Shown here piece after piece: positions 15,630 to 64,000 of a DNA stretch of 64,000 bases (position 1 is its first letter; the number at the start of each line of letters is the position of its first letter). The stretch is from positions 1 to 64,000 of the IMG/VR virus record IMGVR_UViG_3300044732_002040; one strand, written 5' to 3'. Below the pieces are notes generated by a model, which was not told the origin of the DNA, ran no database searches, and saw only the letters and a program-made list of their open reading frames with translations. The stretch comes from a virus. The position numbers and the translations under genes are program-made.

Positions 15630-16397
15630 TTATAGTAAAAATTTATTTAAATTGTTTAATAATTTAGATTCATTTTCAGATAAATATAGGTTATCTGCTA
15701 TTATATTTGAACTACTATTTAATAAATCCATTTTTTTATTAGTAGATTCCGTATAAGGTTTAAGGTCATTCTTATCAGAAGAAATCCAAGAACCTGGAGT
15801 TGATGGTGAAGTTACAATATCCCAACAGATTAACTCAAAGTCATCTTGAACTACATTCTTACCACCTTCATTTTTAAGTGAACCTACACCTCTAGATGAG
15901 ATACCTACGGTCCAACCTTTTCTAATCATATTAAGAACTTTATCACCAACTGATGAAATAATTCCCATTTTATGATATCCTGGTGTTGTATCTAATTCTA
16001 ATGTACCCATTAGAGTTTTGCCTTCCCACCATAATTCAGTTACCATATGTGATACCCTTTCACCATCAATAATAGATGATTCTGGGTGGTTTAATTCACC
16101 CAAAGAAGTACCCATTTTGATAAACTCTTGGTATCTTTTAGCTTCTCTTTCTAAGATATCTTTAGGGTAGACCCTACCGTTTTTATTTTCTACACCCCAC
16201 TTTTGTAGTACGGCATATATTTCAATTTTTTCAGGTAAAGGCCCGTCCATAGTGAAATTCATTCCAGACTTAAATTCTCTAATTAAATTAACGTTTGAAC
16301 AAACGCCATCTTTGCAAGTTAATTCAGGTTTAATATACCCTGAATCATATTCAACTAAAAAACCTGTACCTTCTTCACCTGGTTTTAATATTTTCAT
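15630..16397 (-). CDS. Prohead protease (T4 gp21-like)
   Basis: A 255-residue serine protease that matures the prohead. Visible family features are LQKWGVENKNGRVYPKDILE (residues about 64-83), SLGELNHPE with the catalytic His104, a GWTVGISSRG segment with the nucleophile Ser at 167 or 168, and WDIVTSPSTPG at about 192-202. This is the herpesvirus/T4-type prohead protease arrangement. The enzyme in T4 cuts after [I/L]xE, which is the pattern found in the leaders of many genes here. It has a late-type motif 16 bases upstream. Confidence 0.9.
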   Translation of the reverse strand: MKILKPGEEGTGFLVEYDSGYIKPELTCKDGVCSNVNLIREFKSGMNFTMDGPLPEKIEIYAVLQKWGVENKNGRVYPKDILEREAKRYQEFIKMGTSLGELNHPESSIIDGERVSHMVTELWWEGKTLMGTLELDTTPGYHKMGIISSVGDKVLNMIRKGWTVGISSRGVGSLKNEGGKNVVQDDFELICWDIVTSPSTPGSWISSDKNDLKPYTESTNKKMDLLNSSSNIIADNLYLSENESKLLNNLNKFLL

Positions 16398-23532: not shown

Positions 23533-23540
23533 ATAAATAT
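23533..23540 (-). promoter_or_regulatory. Candidate late promoter motif ATATTTAT
   Basis: GATATTTATTGGCATG on the minus strand, 4 bases before the chosen terminase start. It decides the start against the ATG at 23543. Confidence 0.5.
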
Positions 23541-23551
23541 CATCAGGCATG

Positions 23552-23587
23552 AAAAAACCCACCATAGTAGCGAACTTGGTGGGTTTT
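23552..23587 (-). terminator. Rho-independent terminator upstream of terminase
   Basis: AAAACCCACCA / TGGTGGGTTTT stem with a 12-base loop; T-run on the minus strand. It ends the 25973-23626 unit. Confidence 0.85.
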
Positions 23588-23588
23588 A

Positions 23589-23621
23589 ATAGTCCGTAGA
23601 CTATAACGGTCCTAATCCGTT
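23589..23621 (-). other. Two further small hairpins next to the terminator
   Basis: ATAGTC-CGTA-GACTAT (23589-23604) and AACGG-TCCTAAT-CCGTT (23605-23621) follow each other directly, right after the stop of the 23626 gene. With the terminator they make three hairpins in 70 bases. Confidence 0.5.
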
Positions 23622-58684: not shown

Positions 58685-59073
58685 TTTTTTTCTTTTGTTA
58701 ATTCGATGATGTCTTCAAGACCCTCAATAAAATCTTTTATATCTTTTAAAGAATATTCTATAATTTCGTCAGCGTATTGTTCTTTATATAATAAGACATC
58801 AGATTCTTTATCTTGTATTATTTCCAAATCGGATTTCATTTCAGTAAGAGTTAAAATCATATCCTCTATGAGCTCAATGGAAGTTGGGCTAAGAGTTCTT
58901 TTTTCTTCGTAAGTATCAATATACGAGTCACCAAGGGATTCAGTACGTTCAGAAAGATATTCTTTAATGATTGAGTCTATTTTATGTTCTGGTAATAAAA
59001 AACTATCATCAGAAAAATGTTCCTTAATATAATTCTTAATGTTTTTAGTACCTATTCTTTTTATTTTTTTCAT
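58681..59073 (-). CDS. Small helical protein upstream of the TKWC-domain protein
   Basis: A 130-residue charged helical protein (MKKIKRIGTKNIKNYIKEHF). The basic start is similar to the packaged-type leaders but a clean [I/L]xE site is only at YIKEH. The remainder (LSPTSIELIEDMILTLTEMK) is coiled-coil-like. It overlaps the large gene by 4 bases. Function unknown. Confidence 0.48.
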   Translation of the reverse strand: MKKIKRIGTKNIKNYIKEHFSDDSFLLPEHKIDSIIKEYLSERTESLGDSYIDTYEEKRTLSPTSIELIEDMILTLTEMKSDLEIIQDKESDVLLYKEQYADEIIEYSLKDIKDFIEGLEDIIELTKEKK

Positions 59074-59082
59074 TTCAATTAG

Positions 59083-59343
59083 TTATTTATTAAATGTAAA
59101 ATTTACAACATCATTAGTTTTTAAAGAATCAAATTCTTCTTTGTCTATAGATTCAATTTTAAAACCGTTATCAAAAAAAGTATCTAACAATTCGGTTAAA
59201 TCCTTATCTGTTATATTTAATTTTATTTTCATAATCTTATCCCCAGTTTTAGGGTCAACCACAGCAATATATTTGTATTTAGTTTCTTTAATCGAATCTA
59301 GTATCAAAAAAACTTTAGATGCACCGTTTAAATATTCTTCCAT
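59083..59343 (-). CDS. Small protein, unknown, first of a minus-strand unit
   Basis: An 86-residue alpha/beta protein (YLNGASKVFLILDSIKETKY; KYIAVVDPKTGDKIMKIKLN). No family recognised. It has a late-type motif 6 bases upstream and lies back-to-back with the UV endonuclease gene and its host-type promoter, so the two divergent units use different promoter classes. Confidence 0.5.
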   Translation of the reverse strand: MEEYLNGASKVFLILDSIKETKYKYIAVVDPKTGDKIMKIKLNITDKDLTELLDTFFDNGFKIESIDKEEFDSLKTNDVVNFTFNK

Positions 59344-59349
59344 ATATTA

Positions 59350-59357
59350 ATAAATAT
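59350..59357 (-). promoter_or_regulatory. Candidate late promoter motif ATATTTAT
   Basis: GATATTTATTAATATATG on the minus strand, 6 bases before the 59343 start. Confidence 0.45.
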
Positions 59358-59374
59358 CTTTGAGTTAATTTAAC

Positions 59375-59405
59375 TTGTTTTTATTTAAAATAAACTTTAT
59401 ATTTG
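59375..59405 (+). promoter_or_regulatory. Host-type (Bacteroidota) promoter
   Basis: TTG at 59375-59377, exactly 20 bases, then TATATTTG at 59398-59405, a perfect consensus match. The ATG at 59410 is 4 bases downstream, so the transcript may be leaderless. Confidence 0.72.
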
Positions 59406-59409
59406 TGTT

Positions 59410-60312
59410 ATGGAAATCGGATATGCTTGCATTAATATGACATTGGGTTCACAGAAACCCAAGATTACTACCAATCGTGGTATGATACGTAAAACTTTTG
59501 ACCAACGTGGTATTGCTTATGTATCAGAATTAGCACTACAAAATGTTCGTGATTTGGTTGAGATTGTTAAATGGAACTACAAAAACGGTATCAATTTCTA
59601 TCGTATGTCTTCTGATATGTTTCCTTGGATGTCAGAGTATGAGTTTTCAGATTTACCTGACTACAACAGAATCAAAACCATCTTAAATGGTTTAGGTACA
59701 TTAGCAGAAAAATACAACCAAAGGTTAACATTTCACCCCGGTCCATTCAATGTTTTGTGTTCACCAACAGAAGATGTGGTAAGACGAACCATCATTGAGT
59801 TAAATAAACATTCACAGATTATGGATATGATTGGTTTATCTACTACGCCATACAACAAAATCAATATCCATGTTGGTGGTGTTTACGGTGACAAACAAAG
59901 TGCTATGGAACGATGGGTAGAAAACTTTCATTTCCTTGATGAGAACACAAAAAAACGTTTGACCATCGAGAACGATGATAAACAATCAGCTTACACTGTT
60001 CGTGATTTATTGTATATCCATGAACATACAGGTATCCCGATTGTTTTTGATTATCATCACCATACATGTCACCCTGATGGGATGTCCCACCAAGAAGCTT
60101 TGTCGATGGCAATGTCCACATGGCCAAAAGACATCACACCAATTGTTCATATATCCGAACCTCGTGATGAAAAAAATTTTAGAGCACACCATGATTATGT
60201 TGTTAACGAAGTAAACACATATGGTTATGACATTGATATTATGATGGAGGCCAAAGCCAAAGAATTAGCGGTATTAGAGTACTCCAAGAGTTTCAAATCA
60301 TTGATATGTTAA
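59410..60312 (+). CDS. uvsE: UV damage endonuclease (UvsE/UVDE)
   Basis: A 300-residue repair nuclease with a TIM-barrel metal site, incising DNA next to UV photoproducts. MEIGYACINMTLGSQKPK, FYRMSSDMFPWMSEYEFSDL, LTFHPGPFNVLCSPTEDVVR, INIHVGGVYGDK, LTIENDD, FDYHHHTCHPDG and PIVHISEPR are the successive UVDE motifs and include the expected His/Glu/Asp ligands. Length is normal. It has a host-type promoter and begins a plus-strand metabolic block ending with thyA and a homing endonuclease. Confidence 0.93.
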   Translation: MEIGYACINMTLGSQKPKITTNRGMIRKTFDQRGIAYVSELALQNVRDLVEIVKWNYKNGINFYRMSSDMFPWMSEYEFSDLPDYNRIKTILNGLGTLAEKYNQRLTFHPGPFNVLCSPTEDVVRRTIIELNKHSQIMDMIGLSTTPYNKINIHVGGVYGDKQSAMERWVENFHFLDENTKKRLTIENDDKQSAYTVRDLLYIHEHTGIPIVFDYHHHTCHPDGMSHQEALSMAMSTWPKDITPIVHISEPRDEKNFRAHHDYVVNEVNTYGYDIDIMMEAKAKELAVLEYSKSFKSLIC

Positions 60313-60335
60313 AATAAAATGTTTATTATTTAACA

Positions 60336-60569
60336 ATGGATGATATAATAAAAATAAGACATTCACATGATTTATGGTGGACAGAAGTTTCCTTAATGGA
60401 AGCTTATGCTTGGCAATATTTTGAAATATCTTATTTAGGTCCTAAAAATTGTTTTGTTATAGTCAATGGGGAAAAAATGGAAATGTCACTTGACAGTTAT
60501 AACAAGATAATGGATAATAAAGCTTTTAAGATTAAATTTGGTCTTAAAAGACATGATTTTAAATTTTAA
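60336..60569 (+). CDS. Small unknown protein
   Basis: A 77-residue protein (HDLWWTEVSLMEAYAWQYFE; GPKNCFVIVNGEKMEMSLDS). No family recognised. It follows the UV endonuclease by 23 bases and precedes the membrane protein by 2 bases, so it is part of the same operon. Confidence 0.5.
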   Translation: MDDIIKIRHSHDLWWTEVSLMEAYAWQYFEISYLGPKNCFVIVNGEKMEMSLDSYNKIMDNKAFKIKFGLKRHDFKF

Positions 60570-60571
60570 TT

Positions 60572-60847
60572 ATGAGACAAAACTTTGTATTTAGGTTCAC
60601 AATAACCTATTTTTTTACTGTAACCTTATTTTGGTTATTAAACTATTTTAAAATGATAAAACTCAACACGGACGAGATATTCCTATTGGGCTTAATCATC
60701 AGCACTTATTACATGATTTTTATTTTGGATAGAAAAATTAAAAATACTGATGAATTGGTAAAGGGTAATTTTTGGCAACTTAAAAATGAACTTAAAAGGA
60801 AATTAAATGGGAAAAATAAAGAAAATAGCGGTAAGCAAGTGTTGTGA
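60572..60847 (+). CDS. Small membrane protein
   Basis: A 91-residue protein with two hydrophobic segments (TITYFFTVTLFWLLNYF at about 10-26 and EIFLLGLIISTYYMIFIL at about 35-52) and a basic cytoplasmic tail. It may act at the host membrane. Its end overlaps the start of the zinc-ribbon gene at 60807 in another frame. Confidence 0.5.
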   Translation: MRQNFVFRFTITYFFTVTLFWLLNYFKMIKLNTDEIFLLGLIISTYYMIFILDRKIKNTDELVKGNFWQLKNELKRKLNGKNKENSGKQVL

Positions 60848-60968
60848 AGCTGGTCTACATATATTTCCGGCAGTTAACACAATGGGTTCTCTCGCTGAAT
60901 ATTATTGTTCTAAATGTTTAAAGGAATGTGAGATTAAACAAATTGAAGAAAAAAAGAAAAATGAATAA
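60807..60968 (+). CDS. Small zinc-ribbon protein
   Basis: A 53-residue protein, MGKIKKIAVSKCCEAGLHIF and later EYYCSKCLKECEIKQ. The CC and CxxC pairs, 21 residues apart, suit a zinc ribbon. It starts inside the membrane protein gene and its stop overlaps the next start by 8 bases, a sign of tight coupling. Such short CC...CSKC proteins are common in phage early regions; function unknown. Confidence 0.6.
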   Translation: MGKIKKIAVSKCCEAGLHIFPAVNTMGSLAEYYCSKCLKECEIKQIEEKKKNE

Positions 60969-61284
60969 AGAACAAGCAAAAGACGAGTTAATTAATGTGT
61001 TATACGGTCAAATGGTAGACCTAACAATGATGTCTAAGATTGAATTGGGTGATGATGTGATTGAGGAAATTAAACGACTCAAAGGTATCATTAATCAAAA
61101 TGAAACAAAATTTAAGGTGGGGGACAAAGTTCACAAACCAAAAGGTTATAAATTTCCTTGCACAATCGTAGGCGTATTTGAAACAATTGCTGGTGAAGTC
61201 CGGGTGATTGGTGAAATGGATGAATACGGATTATTACACATCTTTAACGAGAATCAATTGGAACATTATGAACACACTAGATAA
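60961..61284 (+). CDS. Small SH3-like phage protein upstream of thyA
   Basis: A 107-residue protein. I start at MNKEQAKDELINVLYG (60961); earlier in-frame ATG at 60928 lies inside the zinc-ribbon gene. The C-terminal half FKVGDKVHKPKGYKFPCTIV then GEVRVIGEMDEYGLLHIFNE is a beta-barrel-like segment often seen in phage proteins that flank nucleotide-metabolism genes. Its end overlaps thyA by 17 bases. Confidence 0.5.
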   Translation: MNKEQAKDELINVLYGQMVDLTMMSKIELGDDVIEEIKRLKGIINQNETKFKVGDKVHKPKGYKFPCTIVGVFETIAGEVRVIGEMDEYGLLHIFNENQLEHYEHTR

Positions 61285-62383
61285 AAAATACACAGACTTG
61301 CTCCAAGACATCCTAGACAACGGAGTAAAGAAAGAAACTAGAAATGGAGGTACACTTTCAACGTTCGGCCGACAAATCAGACACAAGATGTCAGAAGGAT
61401 TTCCTTTACTCACAACAAAGAAGATGCCATTCCGTCTTATAGCAACAGAGTTGTTGTGGTTCCTACGTGGCGATACAAACATTAAATACCTTGTTGATAA
61501 TGATTGTCATATTTGGGATGGTGATGCTTATGAGAATTATAAGAAAGACCAAAATGGTATCATTGGTAGTGATTGGACATATAGATTATCTACCCCATCA
61601 GGACATGATTTATTTAGGTTATATACAAAAGAAGAGTTCATCAACAAAATCAAAACAGATGATAAGTTTGCTAAGAAGTGGGGTGAGTTAGGTCCTGTGT
61701 ATGGTAAGCAGTGGAGAAGTTGGGACTATTGGCCTGGATTAAAACTAGGAGATAGAGTATTAAATGATAAAAAATCAATTGACCAAATCCAAAACCTAAT
61801 CAACGACCTTAAAACAAACCCAGACTCAAGACGTTTAATGGTTAATGCTTATAATGTTGGAGAATTGGATTCAATGGTTCTTCCACCTTGTCATTATGGG
61901 TTTCAAGTTTATACAAGAGAGTTGAGTGAGAAAGAAAGATATAGAATATTTGATGAAAGGGGTTATGAATTTATGATGAATAACTGGTCTAAAGAAGAAC
62001 AATATAATAAAGCAGGAATCCCAAACAGAACAATTTCATTAATGTATAATTGTAGAAGCCAAGATTTACCATTGGGAACTCCATTCAATATCAGTTCATA
62101 TGCGTTACTATTAGAAATTATAGGAAAAATGGTTAATATGGTTCCTGACGAATTAATTGCGAATATGGGTGATTGTCACATTTATCTTAATCAAATAGAC
62201 GGAGTTAAGGAACAATTAACAAGAGAACCATATCCACTACCAACATTGAAACATATGAAGACAGATGAATTTTATAAATCACTATCTGAAGATTTGACTT
62301 TATTAACACATTTGGATAATACTGATTTTGTTATTGAAAATTATCAATCACATCCGACAATAAAAATGCCACTTTCTAATTAA
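61268..62383 (+). CDS. thyA: Thymidylate synthase
   Basis: A 371-residue ThyA that methylates dUMP to dTMP using methylene-tetrahydrofolate. FPLLTTKKMPFRLIATELLW, GPVYGKQWRSW, DSRRLMVNAYN, LPPCHYGFQVY with the nucleophile Cys208, RSQDLPLGTPFN at 263-274 and GDCHIYLNQ are intact. It is about 100 residues longer than E. coli ThyA because of inserts near 88-140 and 217-250, which are common in phage and Bacteroidota forms. No intron interrupts it. The start is the ATG at 61268, not the upstream frame. A GIY-YIG nuclease gene lies 46 bases downstream. Confidence 0.95.
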   Translation: MNTLDKKYTDLLQDILDNGVKKETRNGGTLSTFGRQIRHKMSEGFPLLTTKKMPFRLIATELLWFLRGDTNIKYLVDNDCHIWDGDAYENYKKDQNGIIGSDWTYRLSTPSGHDLFRLYTKEEFINKIKTDDKFAKKWGELGPVYGKQWRSWDYWPGLKLGDRVLNDKKSIDQIQNLINDLKTNPDSRRLMVNAYNVGELDSMVLPPCHYGFQVYTRELSEKERYRIFDERGYEFMMNNWSKEEQYNKAGIPNRTISLMYNCRSQDLPLGTPFNISSYALLLEIIGKMVNMVPDELIANMGDCHIYLNQIDGVKEQLTREPYPLPTLKHMKTDEFYKSLSEDLTLLTHLDNTDFVIENYQSHPTIKMPLSN

Positions 62384-62400
62384 CTTTTATGATTTAGTAG

Positions 62401-62408
62401 ATATTTAT
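62401..62408 (+). promoter_or_regulatory. Candidate late promoter motif ATATTTAT of the homing endonuclease
   Basis: GATATTTATA begins at 62400; a start site about 6 bases on would fall after the left arm of the hairpin at 62407. Confidence 0.6.
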
Positions 62409-62431
62409 ATGGTAAGGAGGTAATACCATAT
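62407..62431 (+). promoter_or_regulatory. RBS-sequestering hairpin before the GIY-YIG gene
   Basis: ATATGGTA (62407-62414) pairs perfectly with TACCATAT (62424-62431); two more pairs are possible outside. The loop AGGAGGTAA holds the canonical Shine-Dalgarno AAGGAGG (62414-62420), and the AUG at 62430 is in the right arm. Early readthrough RNA would be folded; RNA started at the late motif would lack most of the left arm. Confidence 0.8.
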
Positions 62432-63182
62432 GATTATTTATAAGACAACAAATTTAGTAAACCAAAAAATTTATATTGGTAAGGACACACATAATAATCC
62501 AAACTATTATGGTTCAGGTAAAAGGTTAAAACTGGCAATTAAAAAATACGGAATTGAAAACTTCAAAAAAGAAACTTTAGAAGTTTGTGATACATTAGAA
62601 TTACTTAATGAAAGAGAAAAATTTTGGATCAAAGAATTGAATGCGATTACTGAAGGTTATAATATTTCTTTAGGTGGGGACGGTGGTGATACTATAAGTA
62701 ATAATCCAAGAAGGGATGACATCAGATTGGAACATAGTAGAAAAATGAAATCACCAAAACACAATAAGAAGAAAGGAACTAAAATTATAAAATTAAAAAA
62801 AAGAGACAATCCAAATTGGGTTAACCCACTAAAAGGTAAAATTAGCCCATTGAAAGGTAAACCAAATGGAAAAAAAGGTATACCAAACCCAGAACACTCA
62901 AAATGGATGAAAGAAAACAACCCCTTTAAAGGAAAAACACATAAACCTGAAGTGATACAAAAATTAAAAGAGGTAAACTCAAAACCTAAAAGTGAAGAAC
63001 ATAAACAAAAAATATCAGAAACATTAAAGGGAAATAAACCAGGTAATATGAGGAAAGTTATTGTTGATGGTATTGAATATGAAAGTTTAAGTTATGCCGC
63101 GAGACAAATTGGTATACCAACATCCACAATGAAAAATAGATTAAAATCTCCAAAATTTGACAATTACAAATATAAAGATTAA
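62430..63182 (+). CDS. GIY-YIG homing endonuclease
   Basis: A 250-residue free-standing endonuclease. The N-terminal nuclease has MIIYKTTNLVNQKIYIGKD (GIY-YIG in the II-Y...YIG form), the Arg/Lys-rich helix YGSGKRLKLAIKKYG, and LLNEREKFWIKEL with the catalytic Glu. The middle holds NUMOD3-like repeats (NPLKGKISPLKGKPNGKKGI; NPEHSKWMKENNPFKGK), and the C-terminus an HTH-like NUMOD1 type DNA-binding segment (YESLSYAARQIGIPTSTMKN). It has the only strong Shine-Dalgarno seen here. Location after thyA parallels T4 td/I-TevI; target site unknown. Confidence 0.9.
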   Translation: MIIYKTTNLVNQKIYIGKDTHNNPNYYGSGKRLKLAIKKYGIENFKKETLEVCDTLELLNEREKFWIKELNAITEGYNISLGGDGGDTISNNPRRDDIRLEHSRKMKSPKHNKKKGTKIIKLKKRDNPNWVNPLKGKISPLKGKPNGKKGIPNPEHSKWMKENNPFKGKTHKPEVIQKLKEVNSKPKSEEHKQKISETLKGNKPGNMRKVIVDGIEYESLSYAARQIGIPTSTMKNRLKSPKFDNYKYKD

Positions 63183-63193
63183 AATTAAAAATT

Positions 63194-63541
63194 ATGAATA
63201 GAGACACGTCGTGGGATGACCCACAATTATCAGATGGTGATATGCCAATCAGACAACAGAACGCACTTAAAAACACATTTCCTGAAGTTGTTGAAAAATG
63301 GGATAAAAAATTAAACGTTTCGGATAAACCCAATGGGCAAGAAATAGCAGAACTTATGGAAAGTGAAGCATCTAAACTTTTAAAAAAAGAATTTAACCAA
63401 CTTGAGGAATTAAACGATTACTTGAAAATGTTGGCTGATATGGATAAGATTGGTATTAGAAGAAAAATTGTGTTACTTGAGGGTTATATAAACAAAATTA
63501 AAAATCATGGAAGACATAAAGGTAGTACACCTCAAGAGTAA
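63194..63541 (+). CDS. Small unknown protein
   Basis: A 115-residue charged helical protein (MNRDTSWDDPQLSDGDMPIR; AELMESEASKLLKKEFNQLE). No family recognised. It is 11 bases after the homing endonuclease and overlaps the GNAT gene by 35 bases, an unusually long overlap that suggests co-translation. Confidence 0.5.
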   Translation: MNRDTSWDDPQLSDGDMPIRQQNALKNTFPEVVEKWDKKLNVSDKPNGQEIAELMESEASKLLKKEFNQLEELNDYLKMLADMDKIGIRRKIVLLEGYINKIKNHGRHKGSTPQE

Positions 63542-63836
63542 CGCTCAAAGACTTGAAACTTGGATTGCCATGAATAAAGGTGAAATTGTTGGTCACATTT
63601 ACATGGAAAGAGAAGACACACAAAAGATTAAATTCTTAGATGCTTGGGTACATGAGGACCACAGACGTAAAGGTGTGTTTCGTATGTTATGGGATGCTCG
63701 TTGGGAATACGTAAAATTAAAGTACCCTAATTGGTTAGTATATGCTTGGTGTAAACCAGCTTCATTGCCTTTATTAATAGAAAAAGGTTTTAGCACTGGT
63801 GAAACTTGTACATACGTTGAGAAAATAATAGAATAG
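63507..63836 (+). CDS. GNAT-family acetyltransferase
   Basis: A 109-residue short GNAT fold protein. The acetyl-CoA pyrophosphate loop is FLDAWVHEDHRRKGVFRMLW (R53-R-K-G-V), after the strand KGEIVGHIYMERED and before a helix and KPASLPLLIEKGFS. It is close to the minimum size for GNAT. The substrate is unknown; phage GNATs often modify host proteins or peptides. Confidence 0.75.
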   Translation: MEDIKVVHLKSNAQRLETWIAMNKGEIVGHIYMEREDTQKIKFLDAWVHEDHRRKGVFRMLWDARWEYVKLKYPNWLVYAWCKPASLPLLIEKGFSTGETCTYVEKIIE

Positions 63837-63851
63837 TGTTTTTTATATAAA

Positions 63852-64000
63852 ATGTCGTTTATTAAGTATTTAATTATTTGGATATCAGAAAATTTATCAA
63901 TCCCGTTTTGGGTTGTAGGCCATATTCATCTATCATTAAACGTATATGAGGACATTTATGAAATAATTGTGTCTTTTGGCATGAATATAATCGTATTTAT
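63852..64000 (+). CDS. Unknown protein, cut by the window end
   Basis: ATG at 63852 opens a frame of at least 49 codons to the window end without a stop: MSFIKYLIIWISENLSIPFW, then VVGHIHLSLNVYEDIYEIIV. The sequence is hydrophobic and may be a membrane protein. It follows the GNAT gene by 15 bases. Confidence 0.5.
   Translation, partial: MSFIKYLIIWISENLSIPFWVVGHIHLSLNVYEDIYEIIVSFGMNIIVF

Follow-up and report, generated by a model that had tools for sequence, protein, structure and literature searches.

Endonuclease switches in T4-like phages and the locus behind thyA

The early-silent, late-on switch of I-TevI, the endonuclease of the td intron in phage T4, was reportedly described by Gott in 1988 and Edgell in 2004. 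On transcripts arriving from upstream a hairpin hides the I-TevI start, late RNA is made without the 5′ arm of that hairpin, and one reason proposed for the switch is that ribosomes are kept out of the intron core (PMC2988022). A free-standing setting for such control is not new, the same logic having been published for mobE of Aeromonas phage Aeh1 and segB of T4, both of which combine a ribosome-binding site (RBS) hairpin with a late promoter (PMC2988022, PMC3014915); these genes differ from the one described here in that mobE encodes an HNH enzyme in nrdA and segB sits among tRNA genes, each in a phage of a host that uses Shine-Dalgarno (SD) sequences. The T4 lysozyme gene e and soc likewise have starts that are hidden on long early RNA and free on short late RNA (PMC3014915), but are phage genes rather than mobile endonucleases. 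The best named match to the protein studied here (37%), gp251 of Yersinia phage fHe-Yen9-01 (NC_055716; L176 2501-3193), is also free-standing, I-TevI-like and placed directly after an uninterrupted td; its start, however, overlaps the td stop codon, and neither a hairpin nor a late promoter was seen when both were looked for there.

We analysed 64,000 nucleotides of viral DNA (the window; positions 1 to 64,000 of IMG/VR record IMGVR_UViG_3300044732_002040, which is itself partial and comprises 69,848 bases). Within it, thyA (61268..62383, + strand; 371 aa, C-terminus PLSN) matches the thymidylate synthase family PF00303 over residues 5-369 (E 3.1e-88) and shares 74% DNA identity with thyA of Flavobacterium phage immuto, in which the gene after thyA is something else. 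The window gene that follows encodes a GIY-YIG homing endonuclease (62430..63182, + strand; 250 aa), its AUG lying 46 nt downstream of the intact thyA. A first-pass annotation of this DNA had described a free-standing nuclease beside an uninterrupted thyA, and this description holds: thyA is uninterrupted, the endonuclease ORF is placed after the stop codon rather than in a group I intron, and neither a group I intron nor any other Rfam RNA was matched in the window at gathering score. The window protein carries NUMOD3 (PF07460; 21.9 bits against a cut-off of 20.4), the I-TevI DNA-binding domain (PF20987; 41 bits against 27) and a GIY-YIG domain that scored above the Pfam cut-off in a six-frame search and slightly below it by hmmscan (18.9 vs 22.6), whilst its only meaningful PDB matches were I-TevI structures 1i3j (5.1e-8) and 1ln0 (8e-5). 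A second GIY-YIG gene, in a 223-kb relative, was considered and set aside as UvrC-like by inspection and without a hairpin, and HNH_3 genes were absent from the four records searched.

The locus resembles I-TevI in its GIY-YIG enzyme, its type of DNA-binding domain, its link to thymidylate synthase and, as predicted here, its hairpin and late promoter. It differs from I-TevI in lacking an intron, in placing the SD in the loop and the AUG in the stem, and in a protein that falls outside the I-TevI clade and shows in alignment no counterparts of the I-TevI linker zinc-finger cysteines. The predicted late promoter element also differs, being ATATTTAT rather than the TATAAATA of T4, which agrees with the earlier suggestion that the late promoter of this phage is another one. 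PHROGs identified genes for the portal, the major head protein and terminase in the window, and Pfam one for a prohead protease. Of the 69 window genes, only 6 have an SD-like 4-mer upstream, which, together with the kinship to a Flavobacterium phage, suggests that the host is probably a member of the Bacteroidota.

Stem-loop over the start codon and the predicted late promoter

Direct reading confirmed that a stem encloses the SD core in its loop and the AUG in its right arm, as first annotated, and refined its extent. The perfect 8-bp stem pairs 62407-62414 (left arm ATATGGTA, + strand) with its exact complement at 62424-62431 (right arm TACCATAT, + strand) around the loop AGGAGGTAA (62415-62423, + strand), and the pairing lengthens to 10 bp (62405-62414/62424-62433), including one U·G. 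The 8-bp stem covers only the A and U of the start codon, and the 10-bp stem pairs the whole AUG (62430-62432). On the basis of sequence and folding, the right arm thus extends over 62424..62433 (+ strand) and includes the entire start codon, whilst the left arm (62405..62414, + strand), predicted to be absent from late RNA, is invariant in 19 of 20 relatives, the exception being L016 with two changes. The AAGGAGG SD (62414..62420, + strand), invariant in 20/20 relatives, has its first A (62414) paired and its other six bases in the loop, such that in the modelled fold the AUG is more hidden than the SD. RNAfold also returned a weaker outer stem, its 5′ half at 62397..62403 (+ strand) forming 7 bp with 62435-62441 in codons 2-4; this stem is less certain, since among 12 distinct relatives 4, 7 and 4 have lost the three outermost pairs, respectively.

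The region from -50 to +21 folds at -15.2 kcal/mol (z about -3.3 against dinucleotide shuffles), compared with -16.4 kcal for the T4 I-TevI start region folded the same way. Opening positions -14 to +6 would cost 13.6 kcal, ranking second among the 69 window genes (mean 4.3, sd 3.2). When the window was pooled with three related contigs, a perfect stem (minimum 8 bp) whose 3′ arm touches the AUG was found in just seven of 482 genes, and three of the seven are this endonuclease gene. Letting the RNA begin 9-13 nt into the ATATTTAT motif lowers the computed cost of opening the start from 13.1 kcal to 2.6 kcal.

The ATATTTAT motif (62401..62408, + strand) overlaps the left arm where the first-pass annotation had placed it, and is predicted to be a late promoter element based on 8-mer enrichment and association with virion genes. 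It occurs 33 times in the window against 18 expected, and is the top-ranked 8-mer in the 60 nt upstream of the 69 window ATGs, where 18 of the 33 copies lie in sense orientation and 3 in antisense. Three related cassette-carrying contigs show the same enrichment (50 seen vs 3.2 expected, 18 vs 0.6 and 11 vs 0.7). Only about one fifth of genes are preceded by the motif, amongst them those for prohead protease, portal and head-tail adaptor, and the median upstream gap of motif-bearing genes is 46 nt, compared with 10 nt for others. From 29910 to the window end, the plus strand carries a single copy, that at 62401, and the thyA cluster is without the motif. The annotated genome of immuto has related TATTTATA-type sites upstream of terminase and other virion genes; a literature search on late promoters of Flavobacterium phages found nothing relevant.

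In four contigs (the window, G001, G002 and G005; loci L178-L196) the distance from ATATTTAT to the AUG is bimodal, with peaks at 12-15 nt (39/96) and 22-24 nt (23/96) and almost no values below 11 nt. The shorter peak implies that RNA starts no further into the motif than about +12 to +13, and in T4-type geometry the late start lies about 12-13 nt past the first motif base. Both place the predicted late start at 62413..62414 (+ strand), where the left arm ends. A start upstream of 62407 had been named at the outset as the case in which both hairpin arms are always present, and the motif-AUG spacing speaks against it. The 12-15 nt peak further predicts that many late mRNAs would be leaderless or nearly so.

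A candidate host-type promoter, TTG-N20-TATATTTG (59375..59405, + strand), matched by pattern ahead of the UvdE-thyA cluster, is a possible source of read-through RNA, but the match is weak, since the window holds 22 of its kind and it is not significant alone. No terminator-like site was found within 58900-63900. Elsewhere in the window, a terminator-like hairpin (AACCCACCA...TGGTGGGTTTTTT) and a copy of ATATTTAT lie at the annotated terminase start (about 23540-23600, - strand), where the true start is probably the ATG downstream of the motif. In immuto (NC_055915.1, 20-80 kb; L095, L355), the motifs TATATTTAGGTA and AATAATTAA are strongly enriched before non-virion genes and probably form the early promoter of that phage.

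Conservation, recurrence and mobility of the leader

A search by protein alone recovered 20 close relatives (62-93% identity over the aligned part), and each of these carries the 30-nt element of motif plus hairpin with 0-2 base differences, in the shared pattern GATATTTATATG[GT/AC]AAGGAGGTAA[T/A]ACCATATG. An exact scan for this pattern across all viral contigs gave matches restricted to these endonuclease loci. The element was identical in six of seven compared genes and changed at one base in the seventh, against differences of 24-58% at 4-fold sites, and by this comparison is under strong constraint. Upstream of GATATTTAT the relatives have unrelated sequences because the cassette stands behind two kinds of thyA; that the element is constant behind both suggests that it belongs to a mobile cassette and travels with the gene. 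The arms show no covariation within the window's own class, the sequence being frozen, so conservation here does not separate an RNA structure from a protein-binding site. Departures from the pattern were few: L016 has two broken pairs and five other relatives lack the terminal pair, with L016 and the L015-type leaders (one pair lost) giving the weakest hiding (7.8 kcal) and L016 only a small predicted relief upon late start. The L020 and L027 leaders fold differently, and L198, a degenerate copy, has lost the right arm.

Further loci were found with other endonucleases and thyA as queries, revealing three more endonuclease leader classes (B, C and D) in the slot after thyA, which place other hairpins around ATATTTAT. 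The motif plus hairpin that was initially proposed as a search target upstream of GIY-YIG genes is present in all 20 close relatives and, with other hairpins, in these three classes. In class D, the largest of these, the layout is AGGACTACC..TTTAA, a loop with ATATTTAT, then TTAAAAGGTAGTCCT-ATG, with the left arm following the thyA stop, the promoter motif in the loop and the right arm adjoining the AUG; 93% of cells pair, and two pairs are changed on both sides. Class B has the promoter motif at the tip and the RBS in the 3′ arm, whilst class C uses the motif as its left arm, paired to the region around the start. In every class, the start is predicted to be freed when RNA begins 13 nt into the motif and hidden only in read-through RNA. 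The median opening cost of 15 endonuclease leaders is 11.5 kcal, compared with 4.3 kcal for 91 other ATATTTAT genes (p=2.7e-9), and the loss of opening cost upon late start is 9.3 vs 3.2 kcal (p=1.6e-7), both p-values being optimistic because the leaders are related to one another; moderate relief upon late start is also common among the other motif genes.

The protein tree, which has several long branches, separates the window class (A) from classes B-D, which group with I-TevI, the linker zinc finger of which is present in the class B and C endonucleases. It follows that the architecture probably arose at least twice. The initial proposal that the I-TevI logic had either evolved or been kept at this locus can be narrowed accordingly, the tree and the unrelated leaders favouring separate evolution over retention.

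The prohead protease gene of the window (15630-16397, - strand; start 16397) has a 10-bp perfect stem (CATATTTATA/TATAAATATG) with ATATTTAT as left arm and the start codon in the right arm, the layout of leader class C. In a further class E (L311-L327), left out of the opening-cost statistics because its three computed values referred to a site 9 nt away from the AUG, ATATTTAT is followed by AAGGATAAACCTT with the AUG about 35 nt from the motif start, and the small hairpin would lie within the late RNA. Locus L251 has a sequence resembling the class D left arm, CTTTTAGGGTTACCTTT, after its thyA stop but no endonuclease, and this is possibly a deletion scar.

Comparison of filled and empty sites marks leader plus ORF as a probable mobile homing-endonuclease cassette. 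Between L005 (filled) and L244 (empty) the flanks match on both sides, with leader and ORF inserted directly after the thyA stop. Downstream flanks match at 91-97% between loci that differ in thyA type, one short (..KLELAI) and the other long (..PLSN), as in L013 vs L197 and in L009 and L010 vs L258 (the flank matches being those of L013/L197 and L009/L258); it thus appears that thyA was exchanged together with the endonuclease. Copies of the ThyA C-terminus (..ENYQSHPTIKAPLSN) also form the ends of several endonucleases or follow their stop as a tail: the copy NYQSHPTIKAPLSN ends the ORFs of L105, L212, L220 and L305, and remnants lie just past the stop in L102, L198, L015 and L017. These tails place the original insertion within the 3′ end of thyA.

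The proposed switch and competing explanations

We consider it probable (about 0.76) that this gene encodes a mobile homing endonuclease restricted to late infection by a hairpin and a late promoter, in the manner of I-TevI and mobE. The hairpin, the motif, their conservation and recurrence and the cassette boundaries are all read from the sequence; the course of events is a prediction built upon them. A cassette of leader and ORF would have inserted behind thyA, where read-through RNA from the thyA cluster should carry both arms, pair the AUG and prevent synthesis of the enzyme. Late RNA would start about 12-13 nt into ATATTTAT, near 62413, and miss the left arm, leaving a leader of about 16 nt with AAGGAGG at its 5′ end from which the gene could be translated. 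The enzyme, to judge from the filled and empty sites, would go on to cleave thyA regions without the cassette and spread by repair, sometimes taking its thyA along, and the same switch would have arisen separately in an endonuclease lineage nearer to I-TevI, in the same slot of related phages. The early-silent, late-on logic of the first-pass annotation accordingly finds support in silico, the element being kept in relatives and the opening cost dropping upon late start.

Part of this evidence could be read differently. A frozen element, loop included and without covariation, would also suit an operator at which the endonuclease or another protein, bound to the DNA across the promoter, would repress the protein's own gene, the hairpin being a by-product; autorepression of I-TevI at its own late promoter is published (PMC2988022), and the window protein has the corresponding DNA-binding domain. 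We regard an operator as unlikely, since the element holds no convincing thyA-like match resembling a homing site (for the window thyA, 288/300 shuffles were as good; L011 likewise gave none; a match in L002, reached by 8/300 shuffles, requires three gaps) and the other leader classes retain a hairpin with a different sequence. The same recurrence bears on whether ATATTTAT might simply confer late expression, with a hairpin that does not influence translation. Support for the promoter motif is good, and many late genes have some AUG-proximal structure that is lost in late RNA, but among motif genes the leaders of the endonucleases stand out, and leader classes of unrelated sequence each set a stem over the start, which leaves a promoter acting by itself rather improbable.

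Were ATATTTAT instead an RNA-level translation element, late RNA would keep both arms, and the fixed AUG spacing, with its peaks at 12-15 and 22-24 nt, would be accounted for. This is very unlikely given that the motif precedes only about one fifth of genes, that the gaps upstream of these are long (median 46 vs 10 nt), that in the window it stands before known virion genes and that the class C motif, as RNA, would pair with the start. It is also conceivable that the strong SD and the hairpin came with the gene from a phage that uses SDs and persist as relics under no selection here, as this SD is the only strong one in each contig and the closest named relative stands behind td in a T4-like phage of Yersinia. 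That the SD is invariant in 20 relatives with 4-fold sites up to 58% diverged, and that hairpin and late promoter are both absent from the Yersinia gene, makes a relic highly improbable.

The SD itself remains a puzzle for the late-restricted switch that we favour. Pairing of AAGGAGG with the 16S tail (-13.1 kcal/mol) is the strongest among the 67, 273, 78 and 66 genes of four phage contigs, across which this endonuclease is the sole gene with a full SD, and the SDs of the other leader classes are weak (-2.9 to -5.9 kcal). Bacteroidota hosts normally ignore SDs, the anti-SD of their ribosomes being buried with bS21, bS18 and bS6. In such a host SD strength should matter little, which counts against the switch. 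The anti-SD is buried in ribosomes of Flavobacteriales, with rpsU as a known exception that requires an SD stronger than about -13 kcal (energies computed differently from ours) and is boosted by ribosomes without bS21 (PMC9976891). Certain freshwater Bacteroidetes phages are described as a group that encodes bS21 (PMC9723584); among seven related records, one that carries this cassette has such a gene (L096, G005:C1:45729-45887), and none was found in the window's partial record. The L096 gene has ATATTTAT in its own upstream region. The SD may act as a second gate, compensate for a very short leader or form part of a protein-binding site. More speculatively, and with little expectation that it is correct, AAGGAGG, with a strength like that of the rpsU SD, could be a regulatory element in its own right, read mainly by ribosomes with an exposed anti-SD, such as those in which bS21 is lacking or exchanged during infection. 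If so, hairpin, late start and specialized ribosomes would together gate a selfish nuclease. Independently of that reading, this SD offers a clean exception to SD-blind translation in the phylum of the probable host.

Overall, the proposed switch would extend the early-silent, late-on control of T4 endonucleases to phages that probably infect Bacteroidota and that use another late promoter, and for these a map of late start sites is now predicted. I-TevI relatives that are free-standing and linked to thyA, with both filled and empty sites to compare, also bear on the origins of intron endonucleases. As there is no intron here, the reason proposed for T4, that ribosomes are kept out of the intron core, must be replaced by another, for example when the cut is made with respect to replication or packaging. 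Ultimately, at least two endonuclease lineages within one slot have assembled the proposed switch out of unrelated sequences, which suggests that the timing of the enzyme is selected, even where there is no intron to protect.
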